Shown here: one piece after another, positions 6,765-31,181 of the stretch
How positions within the stretch are numbered: the stretch's first letter is position 1
Layout: every line of letters begins with the position of its first letter
Origin: Elusimicrobia bacterium GWB2_63_22
GTDB lineage: Bacteria > Elusimicrobiota > Elusimicrobia > Elusimicrobiales > UBA9959
Assembly: GCA_001799735.1 (NCBI GenBank)
Contig: MGUA01000012.1
Span: 181,873-216,178, forward strand
Direction of reading: 5' to 3'
DNA: 34,306 nucleotides
Translations under genes and position numbers: made by a program
The notes under the pieces: model-generated
What the model was told of the DNA's origin: nothing
Seen by the model: the letters and a program-made list of their open reading frames with translations, nothing else
Databases searched by the model: none

Positions 6765-6765
<1 letters not shown>
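5992..6765 (-). CDS. YfcA-like TSUP (TauE/SafE) membrane transporter
   Basis: A 257-residue inner-membrane protein with about eight helices. Two inverted-repeat signatures of the TSUP family are visible: GFVDAIAGGGGLITLP (21-36) with GTNKLSS (50-56) in the first half, and FYDGLLGPGTGTFLAVGF in the second half. These closely follow the YfcA type. Family members export sulfite, sulfoacetate or other organosulfur or organic anions; YfcA itself has no firm substrate. The start codon overlaps the stop of the large hybrid kinase gene by one base (TGATG), so translation is coupled and the transporter may be the target or a partner of that kinase pathway. Confidence 0.85.
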
Positions 6766-10130
<3,365 letters not shown>

Positions 10131-15873: not shown

Positions 15874-16127
15874 ATGGCGCCTCTCTTACATCCTATCTAA
15901 CGCCAGCTGCCACCGGCAATCAGTAATACTCCCGCTATTGCGGGGAGAACTACCGATGTTTCCGGCTTAGAGTGAATATCTATACTTAGGGCTCAAGACT
16001 TAAGGATCCGCCGGCTGGTCTTTTAGAAAGGCTATGGAATTTTACCGATAATTGCGAGTAATCTTCCGCATTGCCGGCTGCGGCGGCGGGTGATAAAGTA
16101 TATCTGCACCTGAATCAGGAAATATTT
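15874..16127. promoter_or_regulatory. Divergent intergenic region with a weak promoter candidate
   Basis: 254 bp between the oxidoreductase and the PAS-GAF kinase. TATACT at 15981-15986 with TTTCCG 16 bp upstream could drive the kinase gene. A short hairpin (CTCCCGC, TATT, GCGGGGAG, about 15930-15948) is also present. No small gene was recognised. Confidence 0.25.
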
Positions 16128-18800
16128 ATGAAAGAAGGGAAAAAAAATAAAATTCATGGCGCGAAGGCTTCCGGGACAAATGCCCCGCAGGAAATTCTGG
16201 TAAAAGCCGCCGGGATCCAGCCAGGGGGTGTGGAACCCTCGTGTCCTGCGCTCGACAGTAAACTCACGGGCGCCGCTCTGCGCGACTCGGAGCTGCGCTA
16301 TCGGCGGCTGTTCGAGGCGGCACAGGACGGGATACTAATCCTTGAAGCCGAAACCGGCATTATTGTGGATGCAAATCCCTTTATCCTGAATCTGCTCGGC
16401 TTTTCTCTCGAACAGTTAACCGGTAAAAACCTCTGGGAGATCGGGGCCCTTAAAGACGTTTTCGAGAATAAGGAAAAGTTCAAAGAGCTTCAGAATACGG
16501 GGTACGCCCGCTATGAGGGGCTTCCCCTCGTGGCCTCCGACGGCCGCAAACTCTTTGTGGAGTTCGTCAGTAATACGTATGTGGTGGGTGACAGCAAGGT
16601 GATCCAGTGCAATATCCGGGATAACACGGATCTTACGCGGACGCGTGGGGAGTTGACGGAATCTAAAGCCATCCTCGATATGGTAGTGGAAAATGTTCCG
16701 CTTATGATCTTTCTAAAGGACGCGAAAGACCTGCGGTACGCCTTGTTTAACCGCGCGGGGGAGGAATTAACGGGCTATGCCCGCAACGATCTGCTGGGCA
16801 AGAGCGACCTGGACTTCTTTCCGCCCGAGCAAGCCGCCTACTTTATGGGCAGGGACCGGGAAGTGCTTGATGGAAAATCCGACTTTCTGGATATTCCGGA
16901 AGAACCGATCCTGACAGCCAAGAAAGGGACCCGCCTGCTGCATACCCGGAAGGTAAGTGTCAGGGATAAGGATGGCGTTACGAAGTACCTGCTGGGGATC
17001 TCGGAGGACATTACCGATCGCAAGCAGGTGGAACTTTACAGGGAAGTGTCGCGGGAAATACTGGTCATCCTTAACAAGTCCAGCAACCTTGAAGATTCAA
17101 TTAAGGATATCGTGGGCATATTGAAGACCCGCGGCGGGTTTGACGCGGTAGGACTGCGCCTGCAGGAGAAGGAGGACTTTCCGTATTTCTACCAAGACGG
17201 CTTTTCGGAGGATTTCCTGCTTACGGAGAATACGCTGGCGGCGCGCACGGCGGATGGCGGGGTCTGCCGCGACAAGGCGGGGAAAGTCTGTCTTGAATGC
17301 ACCTGCGGCCTGGTAATTTCAGGCAACCCCAACCCGGGCCTGACCAAGGGGGGCACTTTCTGGACCAACGATTCACTCCCGCTGCTGAACCTGCCCGCTG
17401 ACCAGGACCCCCGCCTGGATCCCCGCAACCTCTGTGTCCACAAGAACTACGCCTCGGTCGCGCTGACGCCCATACGCAGCAAGGAAGCCATCGTGGGCCT
17501 GCTGCAGCTGAACAGCCGCAGGAAAGGCTGCTTCAGCGAAGGGATAATAGCGCAACTGGAGAACATGGCGGCGTCCATCGGCGAGGCTTTGCTGCGCAAG
17601 CGGGCTGAGCAGGAGCGGGAGGCCATGCGCGGCGAGCTTATGCAATCCCGGAAAATGGAGTCCATCGGCCGCCTGGCCGGCGGCGTAGCGCACGATTTTA
17701 ATAACCTGCTCACCGCCATCATCGGGTATGGCGGGTTTTTAATGAAGGGATTGGCCGAGGGGGACGCTAAGAGGGAGGACGTTAAAGAGATCCTGACCGC
17801 CGCGGAGCGGGCCGCGGGGCTTACGCAGCAGCTTCTGGCCTTTAGCCGGAAACAGGTTTTAAAGACGGAGGTGGCGGACCTCAATTCGGTCGTATGGGGG
17901 ATAGAGAAATTGCTGAGGCGCCTCATGGGCGAAGAAATCAAGCTTGAAACCAAATACGCGAAGGCGCCCTGTCTGGTGCAGGTCGATATAGGGCAGATAG
18001 AGCAAGTGCTTGTAAATCTTGCGGTTAACGCCAAGGATGCCATGCCTAAGGGCGGAACACTGACTTTGGAGACCGCCCTGGTGGATCAGGGGGGAGACTT
18101 TTCATTAAAACATGCGGATTTCCCGCCGGGGCGCCTGGTGTGTTTAACCATTAAGGACACAGGCTGCGGGATGGCCGATAAGATAAAGGAACATATCTTC
18201 GAACCGTTCTTTACCACAAAAGAAACCGGGAAGGGTACGGGGTTGGGCCTCTCGACCGTTTTTGGAATAGTTAAACAGAGCGGGGGGGAGATCGAGGTGG
18301 AAAGCGCTCCGGATAGCGGCACAACTTTTCAGATCTATATCCCGTATTACGAAGAAGCGGTCGTGGCGAAGGACAAGGCTGCGGACAAGGAGAAGGAGAC
18401 TCTTCTTTCCGGCAGCGAAACGGTACTGCTTGTAGAAGATGAGGAAAGTCTGCGCCGTCTCGGCGAGCGGCTGCTGCGCGCGAGCGGGTATACGGTTCTT
18501 TCAGCCGCTAATGGCAAAGAGGCCCTGGAGGTTATGGGGCGCTATGGCAAAAGTGTGGACCTGCTGCTGACGGATGTGGTCATGCCCGGGATGAGCGGCC
18601 GGGAGCTGGCCACGGAATTGGGCAATAGAAAATTGATACACAGGACCCTGTTCATGTCCGGCTATACGGATGATGCCATAACAAAACACGGCGTGCTGGA
18701 GCCGGGGCTCGCCTTTATCTATAAGCCGTTCACGGTGGAGACGCTGTCGCGTAAACTGCGCGAAGTGCTGGACGGCCCCGCCGACAAAGCGAAGGCGTAA
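16128..18800 (+). CDS. PAS-PAS-GAF hybrid histidine kinase with C-terminal receiver
   Basis: An 890-residue kinase with no clear membrane helix, so probably cytoplasmic. Order: PAS (about 55-170), PAS (about 180-300), GAF-like domain (about 305-490), HisKA with H522 in GGVAHDFNNLLTAI, HATPase with N634, DTGCGM and GKGTGLGLST, and a receiver (about 765-885) with D816 in LLTDVVMPGMSG. The GAF carries a cysteine set (C380, C388, C391, C393, C436) around CLECTCGLVISG and FWTND, which recurs in GAF domains of other environmental kinases and might bind a metal or Fe-S cluster. The ATG at 16128, preceded by AGGAAA, is preferred to a TTG 57 bp earlier. A second kinase gene starts four bases after the stop. 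Signal unknown. Confidence 0.88.
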   Translation: MKEGKKNKIHGAKASGTNAPQEILVKAAGIQPGGVEPSCPALDSKLTGAALRDSELRYRRLFEAAQDGILILEAETGIIVDANPFILNLLGFSLEQLTGKNLWEIGALKDVFENKEKFKELQNTGYARYEGLPLVASDGRKLFVEFVSNTYVVGDSKVIQCNIRDNTDLTRTRGELTESKAILDMVVENVPLMIFLKDAKDLRYALFNRAGEELTGYARNDLLGKSDLDFFPPEQAAYFMGRDREVLDGKSDFLDIPEEPILTAKKGTRLLHTRKVSVRDKDGVTKYLLGISEDITDRKQVELYREVSREILVILNKSSNLEDSIKDIVGILKTRGGFDAVGLRLQEKEDFPYFYQDGFSEDFLLTENTLAARTADGGVCRDKAGKVCLECTCGLVISGNPNPGLTKGGTFWTNDSLPLLNLPADQDPRLDPRNLCVHKNYASVALTPIRSKEAIVGLLQLNSRRKGCFSEGIIAQLENMAASIGEALLRKRAEQEREAMRGELMQSRKMESIGRLAGGVAHDFNNLLTAIIGYGGFLMKGLAEGDAKREDVKEILTAAERAAGLTQQLLAFSRKQVLKTEVADLNSVVWGIEKLLRRLMGEEIKLETKYAKAPCLVQVDIGQIEQVLVNLAVNAKDAMPKGGTLTLETALVDQGGDFSLKHADFPPGRLVCLTIKDTGCGMADKIKEHIFEPFFTTKETGKGTGLGLSTVFGIVKQSGGEIEVESAPDSGTTFQIYIPYYEEAVVAKDKAADKEKETLLSGSETVLLVEDEESLRRLGERLLRASGYTVLSAANGKEALEVMGRYGKSVDLLLTDVVMPGMSGRELATELGNRKLIHRTLFMSGYTDDAITKHGVLEPGLAFIYKPFTVETLSRKLREVLDGPADKAKA

Positions 18801-18804
18801 TTCA

Positions 18805-19950
18805 ATGAATGTAAAAAGTGGCGATGAAACTCCCGAAGCCGCCAGGATCCTCGTTGTGGACGATGAGCCGCAGATGCGCGCGCTCTGCCTCCGGGCCCTT
18901 GCGGGCGCGGGGGTAACCGTAGAGACCGCAGCCGGCCCTGAAGAAGCGCTGGCACTGCTGCGGCGGAGCGCTTTTGACGTCGTTATCACCGACATGCAGA
19001 TGGGCAACCCGCTCGCGGGCGTGACTCTGGCCGAGGAGGTGCGCGGCCGCTGGCCCCGGACCGATATCCTCATCATGACCGGACAGCCCTCCCTGGAAAC
19101 CGCCGTCTCCACGCTTAAGACCGGCGCTGCCGACTATCTTATCAAGCCCTTCTCCATGCCGCAGCTTCAAAGCGTAGTGGGCAAGCTGCTGGGGCTGCGC
19201 CGGCTCAGGCGCGAACTGGAGCGCCAGAAACTTGTTTCCCGCAAGCTGGCCGAAGATTACGCGGTGCTTCAGAAACTCGAGCAGCTTAAATCCGGCCTTG
19301 TCGGGCGCGTAAGTCATGAACTGCGGACCCCGGTTACCATCGCTATCATGGCCGCGGAGAACATCAAGGACGAAGTTTCTCCTTCCGGCCTGATCAGCTA
19401 TTCCAAGCTGGATGGCGCCCTGCGCCGGATGCAGTCAACCGTGGACGACCTGCTGCTTTTTGCGAAAACACAGGACGACAGCTTTCAGATCTCCAGATCG
19501 GAGGTGGACCTTTGGCCTATGCTGGAGCGGCTTATCGCCGACTATCGGCCGCTTTGGGAGAAGCGGGGGCTGACTGTCGCGCTCAGTCTGAAAGGGGAAA
19601 GGCGCCCCCTGCCGGCCGATGCTGAACTTATGAGGGCGGCCTTCTCCCGGCTGCTGCTCAATGCCATAAATTTCAACCGCAAGGGCGGGTCTATCGGCAT
19701 CCTCGCCAGGTACGAACCGCAGCGGGTCTCCTTTGTCTTTACCGATACCGGGGAAGGCATCCCTGCCGGGGAACAACGCCTGATCTTTGACGGCTTGTAT
19801 CAGGTCGCCGACCACCTTACCCGCACGGTAGGCGGCCTGGGGGTCGGGCTTGCCATTGTGCGCCGCATCGTAGCGGCGCACGGCGGGGAACTCTCCGTGG
19901 AAAGCGTCCCCGGAACCGGCAGTATCTTTACGCTTCTCCTTCCGGAATGA
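18805..19950 (+). CDS. Receiver-histidine kinase hybrid (REC-HisKA-HATPase)
   Basis: A 381-residue protein with a receiver first (about 12-128; D19/D20 acidic pocket, phospho-acceptor D63 in ITDMQMG, K114 in IKPF), a coiled-coil linker rich in R, E and K (about 130-160), then HisKA with H171 in VSHELRTPVTIA and HATPase with N-box NAINFNRKGG, DTGEGIP and GGLGVGLAIV. No membrane segment. It directly follows the PAS-GAF kinase with a 4-bp gap, so the receiver may be phosphorylated by that kinase and then tune its own kinase domain. No output domain is present in either protein, so the final regulator must be encoded elsewhere. Confidence 0.88.
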   Translation: MNVKSGDETPEAARILVVDDEPQMRALCLRALAGAGVTVETAAGPEEALALLRRSAFDVVITDMQMGNPLAGVTLAEEVRGRWPRTDILIMTGQPSLETAVSTLKTGAADYLIKPFSMPQLQSVVGKLLGLRRLRRELERQKLVSRKLAEDYAVLQKLEQLKSGLVGRVSHELRTPVTIAIMAAENIKDEVSPSGLISYSKLDGALRRMQSTVDDLLLFAKTQDDSFQISRSEVDLWPMLERLIADYRPLWEKRGLTVALSLKGERRPLPADAELMRAAFSRLLLNAINFNRKGGSIGILARYEPQRVSFVFTDTGEGIPAGEQRLIFDGLYQVADHLTRTVGGLGVGLAIVRRIVAAHGGELSVESVPGTGSIFTLLLPE

Positions 19951-28139: not shown

Positions 28140-28147
28140 TCACAACC

Positions 28148-28180
28148 ATAAACCCTCGAATAATTTCGAGGGTTTATGCT
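28148..28180 (+). terminator. Second copy of the tRNA-end terminator unit
   Basis: ATAAACCCTCGAA pairs with TTCGAGGGTTTAT over 13 bp around the same TAAT loop, then GCTTTTA. It is preceded by CAACCA exactly as the first copy is by the tRNA CCA end. Compared with the copy at 27816, stem positions 2 and 5 differ and both changes are matched on the other strand, so pairing is preserved. Confidence 0.75.
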
Positions 28181-28219: not shown

Positions 28220-30379
28220 ATGACCGAAACCTGGCGTTTTCGCGACGAATGGATGCTGAAGGCGTTCGCGGGGGTTAAGGGCGTTACGCCCGAACTCCTG
28301 GAACAGTTCCGCGGCGAAAAGAAAAAATATCTTTCCCACGCACTCATGGATTCCGGCGTCATCAGCCAGGACCAGTTCATAAAAGCCGCCGAGATCGTCT
28401 TCAAGGCCAAGTACCTGCCGCTGGGCCCCGAAAAGGTGGACAAGTTCGCGCTGTCCCTGGTGCCGGAGAAGATCTGCCGCAAATACGACCTGGTCCCCGT
28501 CAAGCTGGCCGAAAGCGAGATCTGCGTGGCCATGCTAAACCCGGCGGACATGAACGCCCAGGCTGACGTGGAGGCCATTACCGGCCGCCGGGTCATGCCG
28601 ATGTTCTCCCTGCCGCGCGAGATAGACGCCTGCCTGGATCAGCTCTTCAGCGCGGACACCGTCATCTTCGACCTGCTCAGCAAGGTGGACGCCCCCGACG
28701 AAATAATGATCATGGGGGAAGTGAAGAACGACGAGTCCCAGGACAGCTCCGTCACCTCCCCGGTCATCAAGCTGGTCAACTCCATAATTTCCCAGGCCTA
28801 CCGCAAGCATTCCTCCGACATCCACATCGAGCACGAGGAGAAAGCCAGCCACGTGCGCATAAGGATCGACGGCGAGCTGAAGAACATCATGAAGCTGCCG
28901 CGCCATATAGCCATGGGGCCGGTGGTTTCGCGCATAAAGATCATGTCCGACCTGGACGTGGCCAACCATTTCAGGCCGCAGGACGGGCGCACCAAGATCC
29001 GCATCGGCACGGCGGAGGTGGGGCTGCGCGTCTCTACCCTGCCTACCTCCTACGGCGAGAAAGTGGTGATGCGCATCCTGGACCAGCGGGCGGCGGAAGT
29101 ACCGTTCGAGAAGCTGGGGTTCGCCCCCGAAGTGGTCGCCGGCCTGGACAAGTGCATGACCTCCACGCAGGGGATACTGCTGGTCACCGGCCCGACGGGC
29201 TCCGGCAAGACCACCACCCTTTACTCCATCCTCAACAAGGTCAAGCAGGAAACCACCAACGTGGTCACGGTGGAAGACCCGATAGAGTACAAGCTGGCCG
29301 GCATAAACCAGGTGCAGGTCAACGAGAAACAGGGGCTGAATTTCGCGGCGGTGCTGCGCTCGGTGCTCCGGCAGGACCCGGATATCATCATGGTCGGCGA
29401 GATCCGCGACCATGAGACGGCCGACATCGCCTTCCAGGCGGCCATGACGGGCCACCTGGTGCTTTCTACGCTGCATACCAACGATACCATCTCCACCATC
29501 TCGCGCCTTGTGGACATGGGCGTGGACCGGTTCAAGATCTCTCCCGGTCTGCTGGCCATTACGGCCCAGCGCCTTGTGCGCAAACTCTGCCCGCTCTGCA
29601 GGGAGCAGGTTCCCGCGGCGGAGGCGGACCCGGAGATCCTCCGTGCCCTCGCCGAGCACGGCTTTGAAAAAACTTACTACCGCGCCGTCGGCTGCAAGGG
29701 CTGCGAAAGCTCCGGCTACACCGGGCGCACCTCTATCGTGGAACTTCTGCTGATAGACCCCAAGATCAAGGAACTTATAAATTCCGGCGCCCTGGCCGAA
29801 GCCATCGCGGCGGCCGGCACGGAGAGCGGCGCGCTGCGCACCATAACCAAGGACGCGCTGTGGCACCTGGCTACCGGCCAGACCGACCTTAAAGAGGTGG
29901 AATCCTGCCTGCAGCTAAAGAAAGCCGCGGCGCAGCCCGCCGAGGCCCCGGCGCCGGCGGCCCCGGCCCCTGCCGCCACCGCGGCGCCGGCCGGCAAACC
30001 CAGGGTGATGATCGCCGACGACGACCAGATCATGCGCATGCTGCTGAAGAAGTTCATGGAGAACGCCGGCTACGAGTCCGTCGAGGCCGTGGACGGTGAG
30101 GACGCGCTGACGAAGATAGCCGAGGGGCCGGCGCCGGACCTGCTGGTCACCGACATCAATATGCCCCGCCTTAACGGCTACGACTTGGTAAAAGGCGTCA
30201 GGGGCACGCTGGGGCTGCTGGACCTGCCTGTTATCATGCTTACCACGGAGAATTCCGACAAGAGCCAGGAGCTGGCCTTCCAGCTGGGCGCCGACGACTA
30301 CGTGATAAAGCCTTTCAAAGGCCCGCTGGTGATGGCGCGCATAACCGCGGCCCTGCGCCGTGCCGGGCGGGTGAAGTAG
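28220..30379 (+). CDS. pilB: Type IV pilus/type II secretion ATPase PilB/GspE fused to a receiver domain
   Basis: A 719-residue fusion. Residues 1-150 are the GspE/MshE N-terminal domain; 175-570 the assembly ATPase with Walker A GPTGSGKT (324-331), Asp box VEDPIEY (351-357), Walker B DIIMVGEIRDHET and His box GHLVLSTLHTND, and a zinc knuckle from C457/C460 and C492/C495. A flexible Ala/Pro linker (about 570-593) leads to a CheY-like receiver (595-715) with acidic DDD (600-602), phospho-acceptor D645 in LVTDINMPRLNG, and K in VIKPF. ATP hydrolysis drives pilin polymerisation on the cytoplasmic side of the membrane; the receiver implies direct control by phosphorylation. Other pilus genes (pilC, pilT, pilins) are not in the window. 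GspE for secretion is an alternative to PilB. Confidence 0.88.
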   Translation: MTETWRFRDEWMLKAFAGVKGVTPELLEQFRGEKKKYLSHALMDSGVISQDQFIKAAEIVFKAKYLPLGPEKVDKFALSLVPEKICRKYDLVPVKLAESEICVAMLNPADMNAQADVEAITGRRVMPMFSLPREIDACLDQLFSADTVIFDLLSKVDAPDEIMIMGEVKNDESQDSSVTSPVIKLVNSIISQAYRKHSSDIHIEHEEKASHVRIRIDGELKNIMKLPRHIAMGPVVSRIKIMSDLDVANHFRPQDGRTKIRIGTAEVGLRVSTLPTSYGEKVVMRILDQRAAEVPFEKLGFAPEVVAGLDKCMTSTQGILLVTGPTGSGKTTTLYSILNKVKQETTNVVTVEDPIEYKLAGINQVQVNEKQGLNFAAVLRSVLRQDPDIIMVGEIRDHETADIAFQAAMTGHLVLSTLHTNDTISTISRLVDMGVDRFKISPGLLAITAQRLVRKLCPLCREQVPAAEADPEILRALAEHGFEKTYYRAVGCKGCESSGYTGRTSIVELLLIDPKIKELINSGALAEAIAAAGTESGALRTITKDALWHLATGQTDLKEVESCLQLKKAAAQPAEAPAPAAPAPAATAAPAGKPRVMIADDDQIMRMLLKKFMENAGYESVEAVDGEDALTKIAEGPAPDLLVTDINMPRLNGYDLVKGVRGTLGLLDLPVIMLTTENSDKSQELAFQLGADDYVIKPFKGPLVMARITAALRRAGRVK

Positions 30380-30428: not shown

Positions 30429-31181
30429 ATGAAAAAGATACTTCTCGCTGTTTTCGCCTGCTTTATAGCCGGCTCCGCCATGGCCGCGGCCAAGGAGCTG
30501 ACCGAGGACCAGAAGACGCTTTACTTCCTGGGCAAGGCCGTAAGCTCCAAGATAAAGCAGTTCGACTTTACGCCCGAAGAGACCAAGTTCATAGTGCAGG
30601 GCTTTTCCGAAACCCTGGCCGGCAAAGAGCTGAAGCTGGAGGACACCTACGGGATGAAGCTCAACGAGTACCTGGCCAAGAAGCAGGAGGCCATGGTGAC
30701 CAAGGAGAAGGAGAAAGCCAAGCCCTTCCTCGAGAAAATGGCCAAAGAGGCCGGCGCCGTTAAGCTGCCCTCCGGCGTAGTCTACATCCCCGTCAAAGAA
30801 GGCGCCGGCGTTAACCCGACGGCCGCCGACATGGTGAAAGTGCATTACCACGGCACCTTCCCCGACGGCAAGGTTTTTGACTCTTCCGTGGACCGCGGCA
30901 CGCCCGCCGAGTTCCCGCTGGGCGGCGTGATCCCCTGCTGGACCGAGGGCGTGCAGAAAATAAAAGTCGGCGGCAAGGCCCGGCTGGTCTGCCCTTCCGA
31001 CACCGCCTATGGCGACCAGGGCGCCGGCGGGGCCATCCCCGGCGGAGCCACGCTGGTCTTCGAAGTGGAACTGCTCGAGATCCTCAAGCAGCCCGAAGCC
31101 CCCAAGCCTGCCGCTAAACCGGCGGCCAAGCCGGCCGCCAAGCCCGCTAAAAAAGCCGTGAAGGCCGAGCCCAAGAAATAA
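30429..31181 (+). CDS. Exported FKBP-type peptidyl-prolyl isomerase with basic tail
   Basis: A 250-residue folding helper for exported proteins. A signal peptide (MKKILLAVFACFIAGSAMA, cut after residue 19 or 20) precedes an FkpA/Mip-like helical dimerisation region (about 22-110), and the FKBP domain (about 112-220) with VKVHYHGTFPDGKVFDSS, GVIPCWTEGVQKIKVGGKARL and IPGGATLVFEVELL. Trp171 in the GVIPCWTEG motif and the aromatic Y140 fit the proline pocket. The end is a low-complexity tail of PAAK repeats rich in lysine (221-250), perhaps for contact with the envelope. A perfect AGGAGG lies before the ATG, and a strong terminator follows, so it is a single-gene unit. Confidence 0.9.
   Translation: MKKILLAVFACFIAGSAMAAAKELTEDQKTLYFLGKAVSSKIKQFDFTPEETKFIVQGFSETLAGKELKLEDTYGMKLNEYLAKKQEAMVTKEKEKAKPFLEKMAKEAGAVKLPSGVVYIPVKEGAGVNPTAADMVKVHYHGTFPDGKVFDSSVDRGTPAEFPLGGVIPCWTEGVQKIKVGGKARLVCPSDTAYGDQGAGGAIPGGATLVFEVELLEILKQPEAPKPAAKPAAKPAAKPAKKAVKAEPKK

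Follow-up and report, generated by a model that had tools for sequence, protein, structure and literature searches.

Extension of type IV pili is known to be controlled by separate response regulators, cAMP, c-di-GMP and inhibitor proteins (PMC11656802). The c-di-GMP motif of the MshEN domain consists of two RLG..Q motifs of 24 residues each, divided by a 5-residue spacer (PMC5013675). In the same paper, Wang et al. (2016) reported that Bd2402, an MshEN-containing response regulator, binds c-di-GMP tightly, and the occurrence of MshEN together with receivers was already remarked on in their main text. The protein described here, pilB-REC, is closest to the PilB/GspE extension ATPases T. thermophilus PilF, Geobacter PilB and Vibrio EpsE. 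It has the same MshEN/N1-N2-ATPase order, the catalytic boxes and the four zinc-type cysteines in common with them, and its ATPase core is 44-46% identical to theirs; unlike them, it has an extra C-terminal receiver. That receiver resembles in sequence the receivers of OmpR/PhoB-type proteins, whose output domain binds DNA, whereas in pilB-REC the receiver is C-terminal and the output is a pilus motor. A PilB-receiver motor was undescribed in the titles and abstract openings found by our literature search, with most subscription papers and all supplements outside its scope, and the exact T2SSE-REC architecture may be listed in the supplementary tables of Wang et al. (PMC5013675).

The window, the whole stretch of 34,306 nucleotides that was analysed, lies within contig C12 of an Elusimicrobiota MAG (3.06 Mb, 95% complete) whose nearest named relatives are Elusimicrobia MAGs, with 91% identity to GWA2_61_42. 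Its features are collected in Table 1. An earlier note on this DNA had described a PilB/GspE-type motor joined through an Ala/Pro linker to a receiver with an intact D645, and the layout was upheld: the relevant residues are intact and one ORF carries three Pfam domains, each matched above cut-off, namely MshEN (residues 64-146, 6e-15), T2SSE (residues 179-561, 3e-130, 434.5 bits vs a cut-off of 24.9) and Response_reg (residues 596-708, 2.7e-25). In the AlphaFold2 model, built from a 36-row alignment (mean pLDDT 83.8, pTM 0.57), the receiver is modelled confidently as alternating strands and helices, and residues 568-591 of the linker are predicted to be disordered. Chance and a chimeric contig or assembly artefact are ruled out, since many genomes encode the full-length fusion and the architecture is kept in relatives down to ~40% identity. 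pilB-REC belongs to a clade of MshEN-degenerate, PilB-type motors with a built-in receiver.

Table 1. Features of the pilB-REC locus (positions in the window; residues of pilB-REC)
Feature	Position	Strand	Description	Basis
Hybrid histidine kinase, CHASE3-PAS-PAS-HisKA-HATPase-REC-REC-Hpt	6765..10130	-	Candidate trans phosphodonor	Conserved synteny only
Terminator-like inverted repeat	28147..28178	.	Between phosphoketolase gene and pilB-REC	By-eye reading of sequence
pilB-REC	28220..30379	+	719-aa PilB/GspE-type ATPase with C-terminal receiver; single uninterrupted ORF from ATG to stop	ORF reading, Pfam, NCBIfam, predicted model, fold matches
MshEN-like N-terminal domain	28232..28714	+	~Residues 5-165; without tandem c-di-GMP-binding motif	Pfam MshEN 64-146, motif score
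T2SSE ATPase domain	28754..29902	+	Residues 179-561	Pfam, catalytic boxes, PilF/PilB/GspE fold match
Disordered Ala/Pro-rich linker	29915..29995	+	~Residues 566-592	Sequence, pLDDT <50 at 568-591
Receiver domain	29999..30355	+	~Residues 594-712; OmpR/PhoB-like	Best NCBIfam and PDB sequence matches
Phospho-acceptor D645 codon	30152..30154	+		Receiver alignment
FKBP-type peptidyl-prolyl isomerase	30429..31181	+	50 bp downstream of pilB-REC	

A T2SSE ATPase is recognized by Walker A, the Walker B glutamate, an Asp box, a His box and paired CxxC motifs, and all of these elements are present in pilB-REC. Walker A (residues 324-333), the VEDP box, Walker B with E394 and the His box with H419 are intact, and four zinc-type cysteines form two CxxC pairs (457/460/492/495). 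The score against the PilB equivalog TIGR02538 (529.4 bits) falls below the curated cut-off of 675.65, and we therefore use the name PilB-type and not PilB proper; the GspE equivalog TIGR02533 gave 526.1 bits, also below its cut-off of 630.25. The top 24 PDB fold matches of the model were all PilB, PilF, GspE or EpsE, with T. thermophilus PilF first. Among the 60 listed of 155 matched PDB sequences, none combined ATPase and receiver in one best stretch.

The near equality of the PilB and GspE scores (529 vs 526 bits), together with the lack of a pilin or platform gene beside the motor gene in the window, could mean that the motor powers a type II-like secretion system or a pseudopilus and not a type IV pilus. 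We regard this as distinctly improbable, given the identity of the top fold match and the gene order in Calditrichota, where the receiver-fused motor gene heads a pilus-type operon. With home-made profiles, a prepilin peptidase was the next gene in 15/15 loci of the Calditrichota-type branch, and a PilC-like gene then followed in the 14 loci whose contig continues. At one of these loci (L088), Pfam confirmed peptidase A24, T2SSF, PilO and the secretin; after the PilC-like gene come pilin-like genes (identified by eye), a large PilM/N-like protein (our own reading, with no Pfam match), PilO and the secretin. At another (L082), the stretch ends with a further T2SSE ATPase.

The six T2SSF matches in the window's genome fall at three sites, and a further T2SSE gene adjoins each of them (contig C30 with L001 and L011, C33 with L003, and C21 with L007), and the motor therefore probably shares its platform with another motor. 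A precedent is provided by A. baylyi, in which PilB and TfpB are two distinct extension motors of one pilus machine; the passages of that report that deal with TfpB mention no receiver, unlike the case of pilB-REC (PMC11656802).

The earlier note had called for an architecture search for T2SSE followed by Response_reg and for its taxonomic spread, and the fusion was found in several phyla, which rules out an isolated, lineage-specific event. Of 294 Elusimicrobiota genomes, at least 34 encode a receiver-fused motor, and these belong to 9 of the 28 families met; this count is a lower bound, with three candidates scored per genome. In 33 of the 34 the match runs through the receiver without a stop, and in the remaining one (G011) the gene is split across two contigs. 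A partial match in G283 and stop-crossing matches in G024 (its second one), G239 and G279 were left uncounted. In a scan of named genomes, taking the best 80 of 545 loci and additional copies, ATPase and receiver were found together in 63 rows (52 distinct). Their sources are Elusimicrobiota, Gemmatimonadota, Calditrichota and two MAGs that carry the title Deltaproteobacteria and are given as Myxococcota by treekit. Fusions in single MAGs labelled Bacteroidales, Caldisericaceae and Cloacimonetes may be misbinned.

Two trees were compared, both without many near-duplicates among 158 aligned rows. In the tree of 142 rows, built without the two receiver-bearing rows of L232, one side consisted of 46 receiver-less motors, with an SH-aLRT support of 97. 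The other side held the receiver-bearing rows and six rows without a detected receiver, namely the two Acidobacteriota rows of L111, the Gemmatimonadota rows L259 and L260, and L027 and L089, which are cut by contig ends. When L232 was put back and five long rows (L004, L005, L006, L208 and one of L060) were removed, the best branch of this kind held 42 of 43 with a support of 54, and L092 lay outside. By these topologies, most receiver-bearing motors likely belong to one main clade. A single clean origin of the fusion was not established, as the support was 97 in the first tree and 54 in the second.

MshE-type, c-di-GMP-gated motors share the MshEN domain with pilB-REC, and the earlier note had set the motor apart from PilB proteins controlled by c-di-GMP through an MshE-type N-terminus. 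We scored 22 key positions of the tandem c-di-GMP motif, as defined in PMC5013675. The MshEN fold is present in pilB-REC, and few of the c-di-GMP-binding residues are: the score of 8/22, near the shuffled mean of 6.7, does not mark it as an MshE-type receptor; for this genome's canonical PilB the score was 19/22. Among 95 distinct receiver-bearing motors the mean was 7.85 (shuffled 7.24), and a single one (L085, 16) reached 14/22 or more. The 84 receiver-less motors, a label that rests on detection and takes in rows ending at contig ends, had a mean of 15.1 (shuffled 7.6); 50 scored at least 14 and 34 fell below. Judged by these residues, the c-di-GMP motif is eroded in receiver-bearing motors, which makes the contrast with MshE-type control sharper than first claimed. 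Because the trait follows the tree, the loss of the motif may have been one event, not many. L085, which combines motif and receiver, and the 34 receiver-less motors with low scores speak against an exchange of one control for the other.

Wang et al. take the association of MshEN with receivers as c-di-GMP regulation, whereas the motif of pilB-REC is eroded; they also state that binding may not need perfect conservation of the motif, so that loss of c-di-GMP binding in these motors is only a prediction (PMC5013675). Six GGDEF matches were found in the window's genome, and c-di-GMP is therefore probably made in this organism.

In the alignment of the receiver, all phosphorylation residues are present (the acidic pair D600/D601, D645, T675 and K697), and residues 593-718 have OmpR/PhoB-type receivers among their top sequence matches in NCBIfam and the PDB. 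D645 and K697 are found in 55 of the 63 rows and T675 in 54; the exceptions are eight receiver-dead rows, plus one change of T to S. The receiver-dead group comprises eight Gemmatimonadota-type loci (L065-L070, L072 and L078; L067 comes from a record with no label beyond 'unidentified bacterium'). All eight lack the acidic pair, and G or T stands in place of D645, A in place of T675 and E in place of K697, so that these residues were lost together. Nonetheless, the receiver domain is kept in 8/8 of these loci, and ~150-180 extra residues lie behind it in all of them; in L078 a GAF_2 match was obtained behind the decayed receiver. The receiver-dead ATPases nest inside the Elusimicrobiota branch of the tree, which suggests transfer with later decay of the receiver.

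A domain that is kept after its active site has been lost would be able to serve without phosphate, and the receiver might thus be a docking or localisation module that puts the motor at a pole or on a partner, whether phosphorylated or not, with no gating of ATP hydrolysis. The added GAF domain in the one receiver-dead motor tested for it (L078) fits this reading, as does FimX, a known partner of PilB: its receiver lacks the aspartate, and deletion of that receiver is reported to mislocalise pili in the account given in PMC11656802. We consider this reading unlikely. Outside the receiver-dead subgroup the active site is intact, with D, T and K in 28/28 other Gemmatimonadota receivers examined, and the receiver was intact in all of the 27 best loci that follow the receiver-dead group in 150 Gemmatimonadota genomes. 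Receiver-bearing motors are, moreover, linked to kinases.

This linkage was assessed by scoring a histidine kinase or receiver gene no more than 2 genes away in the same co-directional run, with gaps of up to 250 bp; home-made scripts and profiles served for gene calling and labelling. In Elusimicrobiota, a two-component gene was in the run at 23/44 receiver-bearing and 5/37 receiver-less PilB loci (Fisher p 3.5e-4, only a guide, as the loci share ancestry and the value overstates their independence), and for histidine kinases alone the counts were 19/44 vs 3/37 (p 4e-4). A superseded count from a cruder gene caller gave 18/41 vs 4/29 (p 0.009). Four loci stand outside the 44: L043 (no two-component gene in the run), L050 (a kinase, on an odd contig), L071 (cut by a contig end, none seen downstream) and the split gene of G011 (kinase adjacent). 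Of the 40 control stretches, L239 was set aside, as it does not surround a PilB gene. No two-component gene was in the run at 21 of the 44 receiver-bearing loci, the window among them, and this, like the 5 controls that do have one, counts against a kinase switch.

A 377-aa histidine kinase is encoded directly downstream of the motor gene in L042, L044, L046, L049, L054, L056, L059, L062 and L171. Other linked genes encode a REC-HisKA-HATPase protein directly upstream (L177), a REC-kinase-REC protein (L079/L185), a CHASE-PAS kinase with a 4-nt overlap (L186), REC-kinase-REC-REC proteins (L187, L191), and a dCache kinase with a CheY-like protein (L194). The enrichment of two-component neighbours and the kinase directly downstream in relatives support the earlier proposal that a kinase is the likely direct switch of the motor. 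Several of the kinases encoded nearby are hybrids with more than one receiver, accompanied by additional CheY-like proteins, and the receiver of the motor could in principle be a phosphate sink, or a feedback sensor that tunes the kinase and leaves the motor unaffected. Such a role would require neither fusion to a motor nor conservation of that fusion across phyla, and we give it very little credence.

Members of the 377-aa family share a conserved H-box histidine (H172) and a HATPase domain, and cysteines C84, C94, C100 and C103 are invariant in 8/8 sequences. In the model of the linked kinase (mean pLDDT 72.8) the N-terminus appears PAS-like, and the model is too weak for naming the cysteine site. 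At L042:12195-13328 and in its relatives the cysteines lie in this PAS-like N-terminal region, where a metal or redox sensor is possible.

In L042 and similar relatives the 377-aa kinase sits between pilB-REC and the FKBP gene. It is absent from this position in the window, and a search of the window's genome gave as best match a generic kinase only (29% identity, E 4e-14). Some genomes without an adjacent 377-aa kinase, such as G018 and G024, carry its relatives elsewhere. On a tree of 23 rows, of which 9 are loci that have the 377-aa kinase next to the motor gene and 14 are loci that lack it there, at least 8 changes in its presence are required, and D645, T675 and K697 are kept in 23/23 of the same rows. 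The missing kinase would be expected if it had been lost in the window's genome and the receiver were a relic, out of use there. The chance of this seems minimal: the receiver residues are intact, and for the five pairs involving the window's motor dN/dS of the receiver was 0.044-0.129 (0.025-0.129 in ten pairs overall). By these ratios the receiver of the window's motor is under purifying selection although the adjacent kinase is missing. As an aside, many motor loci of the genus, though not all, have an FKBP-type gene next to the motor gene or close by.

The kinases encoded 8-18 kb upstream had been put forward in the earlier note as candidate phosphodonors. Taking more than 50% identity and coverage as the mark of an ortholog, the hybrid kinase at 6765-10130 has orthologs upstream of motors in four distinct loci (L045, L047, where it is a divergent neighbour, L051 and L062), which keeps it a candidate. 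For the kinases at 16071-18800 and 18805-19950 no ortholog was found in the motor loci examined, many of which have little upstream sequence, and they were dropped as conserved partners. The first interpretation thus named the right kind of system and drew its scope too narrowly, and for the partner kinases it largely failed to hold.

We think it rather probable that pilB-REC drives extension in a type IV pilus machine as a PilB-type motor, and that a histidine kinase switches it via its receiver. The motor would be hexameric by homology, with each subunit bearing one receiver on a flexible C-terminal linker. A histidine kinase, acting in trans in the window's genome, would phosphorylate D645, and the phosphorylated receiver would then switch motor activity or engagement with the machine, replacing the control to which c-di-GMP subjects MshE-type motors through the MshEN domain. 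With no platform gene beside it, the window's motor would probably be a separately controlled alternative on a machine shared with the canonical PilB. Phosphotransfer, the direction of the switch, physical coupling and the gating itself are points that we infer. We favour phosphorylation as the 'on' state. OmpR/PhoB-class receivers dimerise and, since this receiver is OmpR/PhoB-like, we also favour coupling through dimerisation of neighbouring receivers on the ring, by analogy. With the receiver on the motor itself, a post-translational switch could be studied using a single purified protein and a single kinase. A natural experiment on the role of the receiver is offered by the receiver-dead Gemmatimonadota relatives, and a second by the repeated gain or loss of the adjacent kinase.

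A wider evolutionary scenario can be put forward tentatively, and we hold it to be possible but somewhat doubtful. A clade spread over several phyla would have swapped control by c-di-GMP and MshEN for a built-in receiver, bacteria like that of the window would keep both kinds of motor, either of which could drive one machine, and in one Gemmatimonadota lineage a kinase-gated motor would have been taken up, its receiver disabled and a GAF domain appended.

Several other arrangements were seen around these motors. In the Gemmatimonadota loci L292-L303, a large co-directional gene (675-1021 aa) lies upstream of PilB-REC in 10/12 loci, and the five products inspected have, by eye, the look of outer-membrane beta-barrels. 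The PilB-type motor at L259:1378-3609, from Gemmatimonadota, has a NUDIX domain where its relatives have the receiver, and L260 is similar to it by sequence. A second kind of receiver-fused T2SSE protein in the genus, of 925-956 aa and with receivers at both ends (REC-MshEN-T2SSE-REC), is encoded at L006:949-3723 (G000:C22) and L208:4204-7074, and in L208 this gene comes directly after that of a kinase with two receivers.
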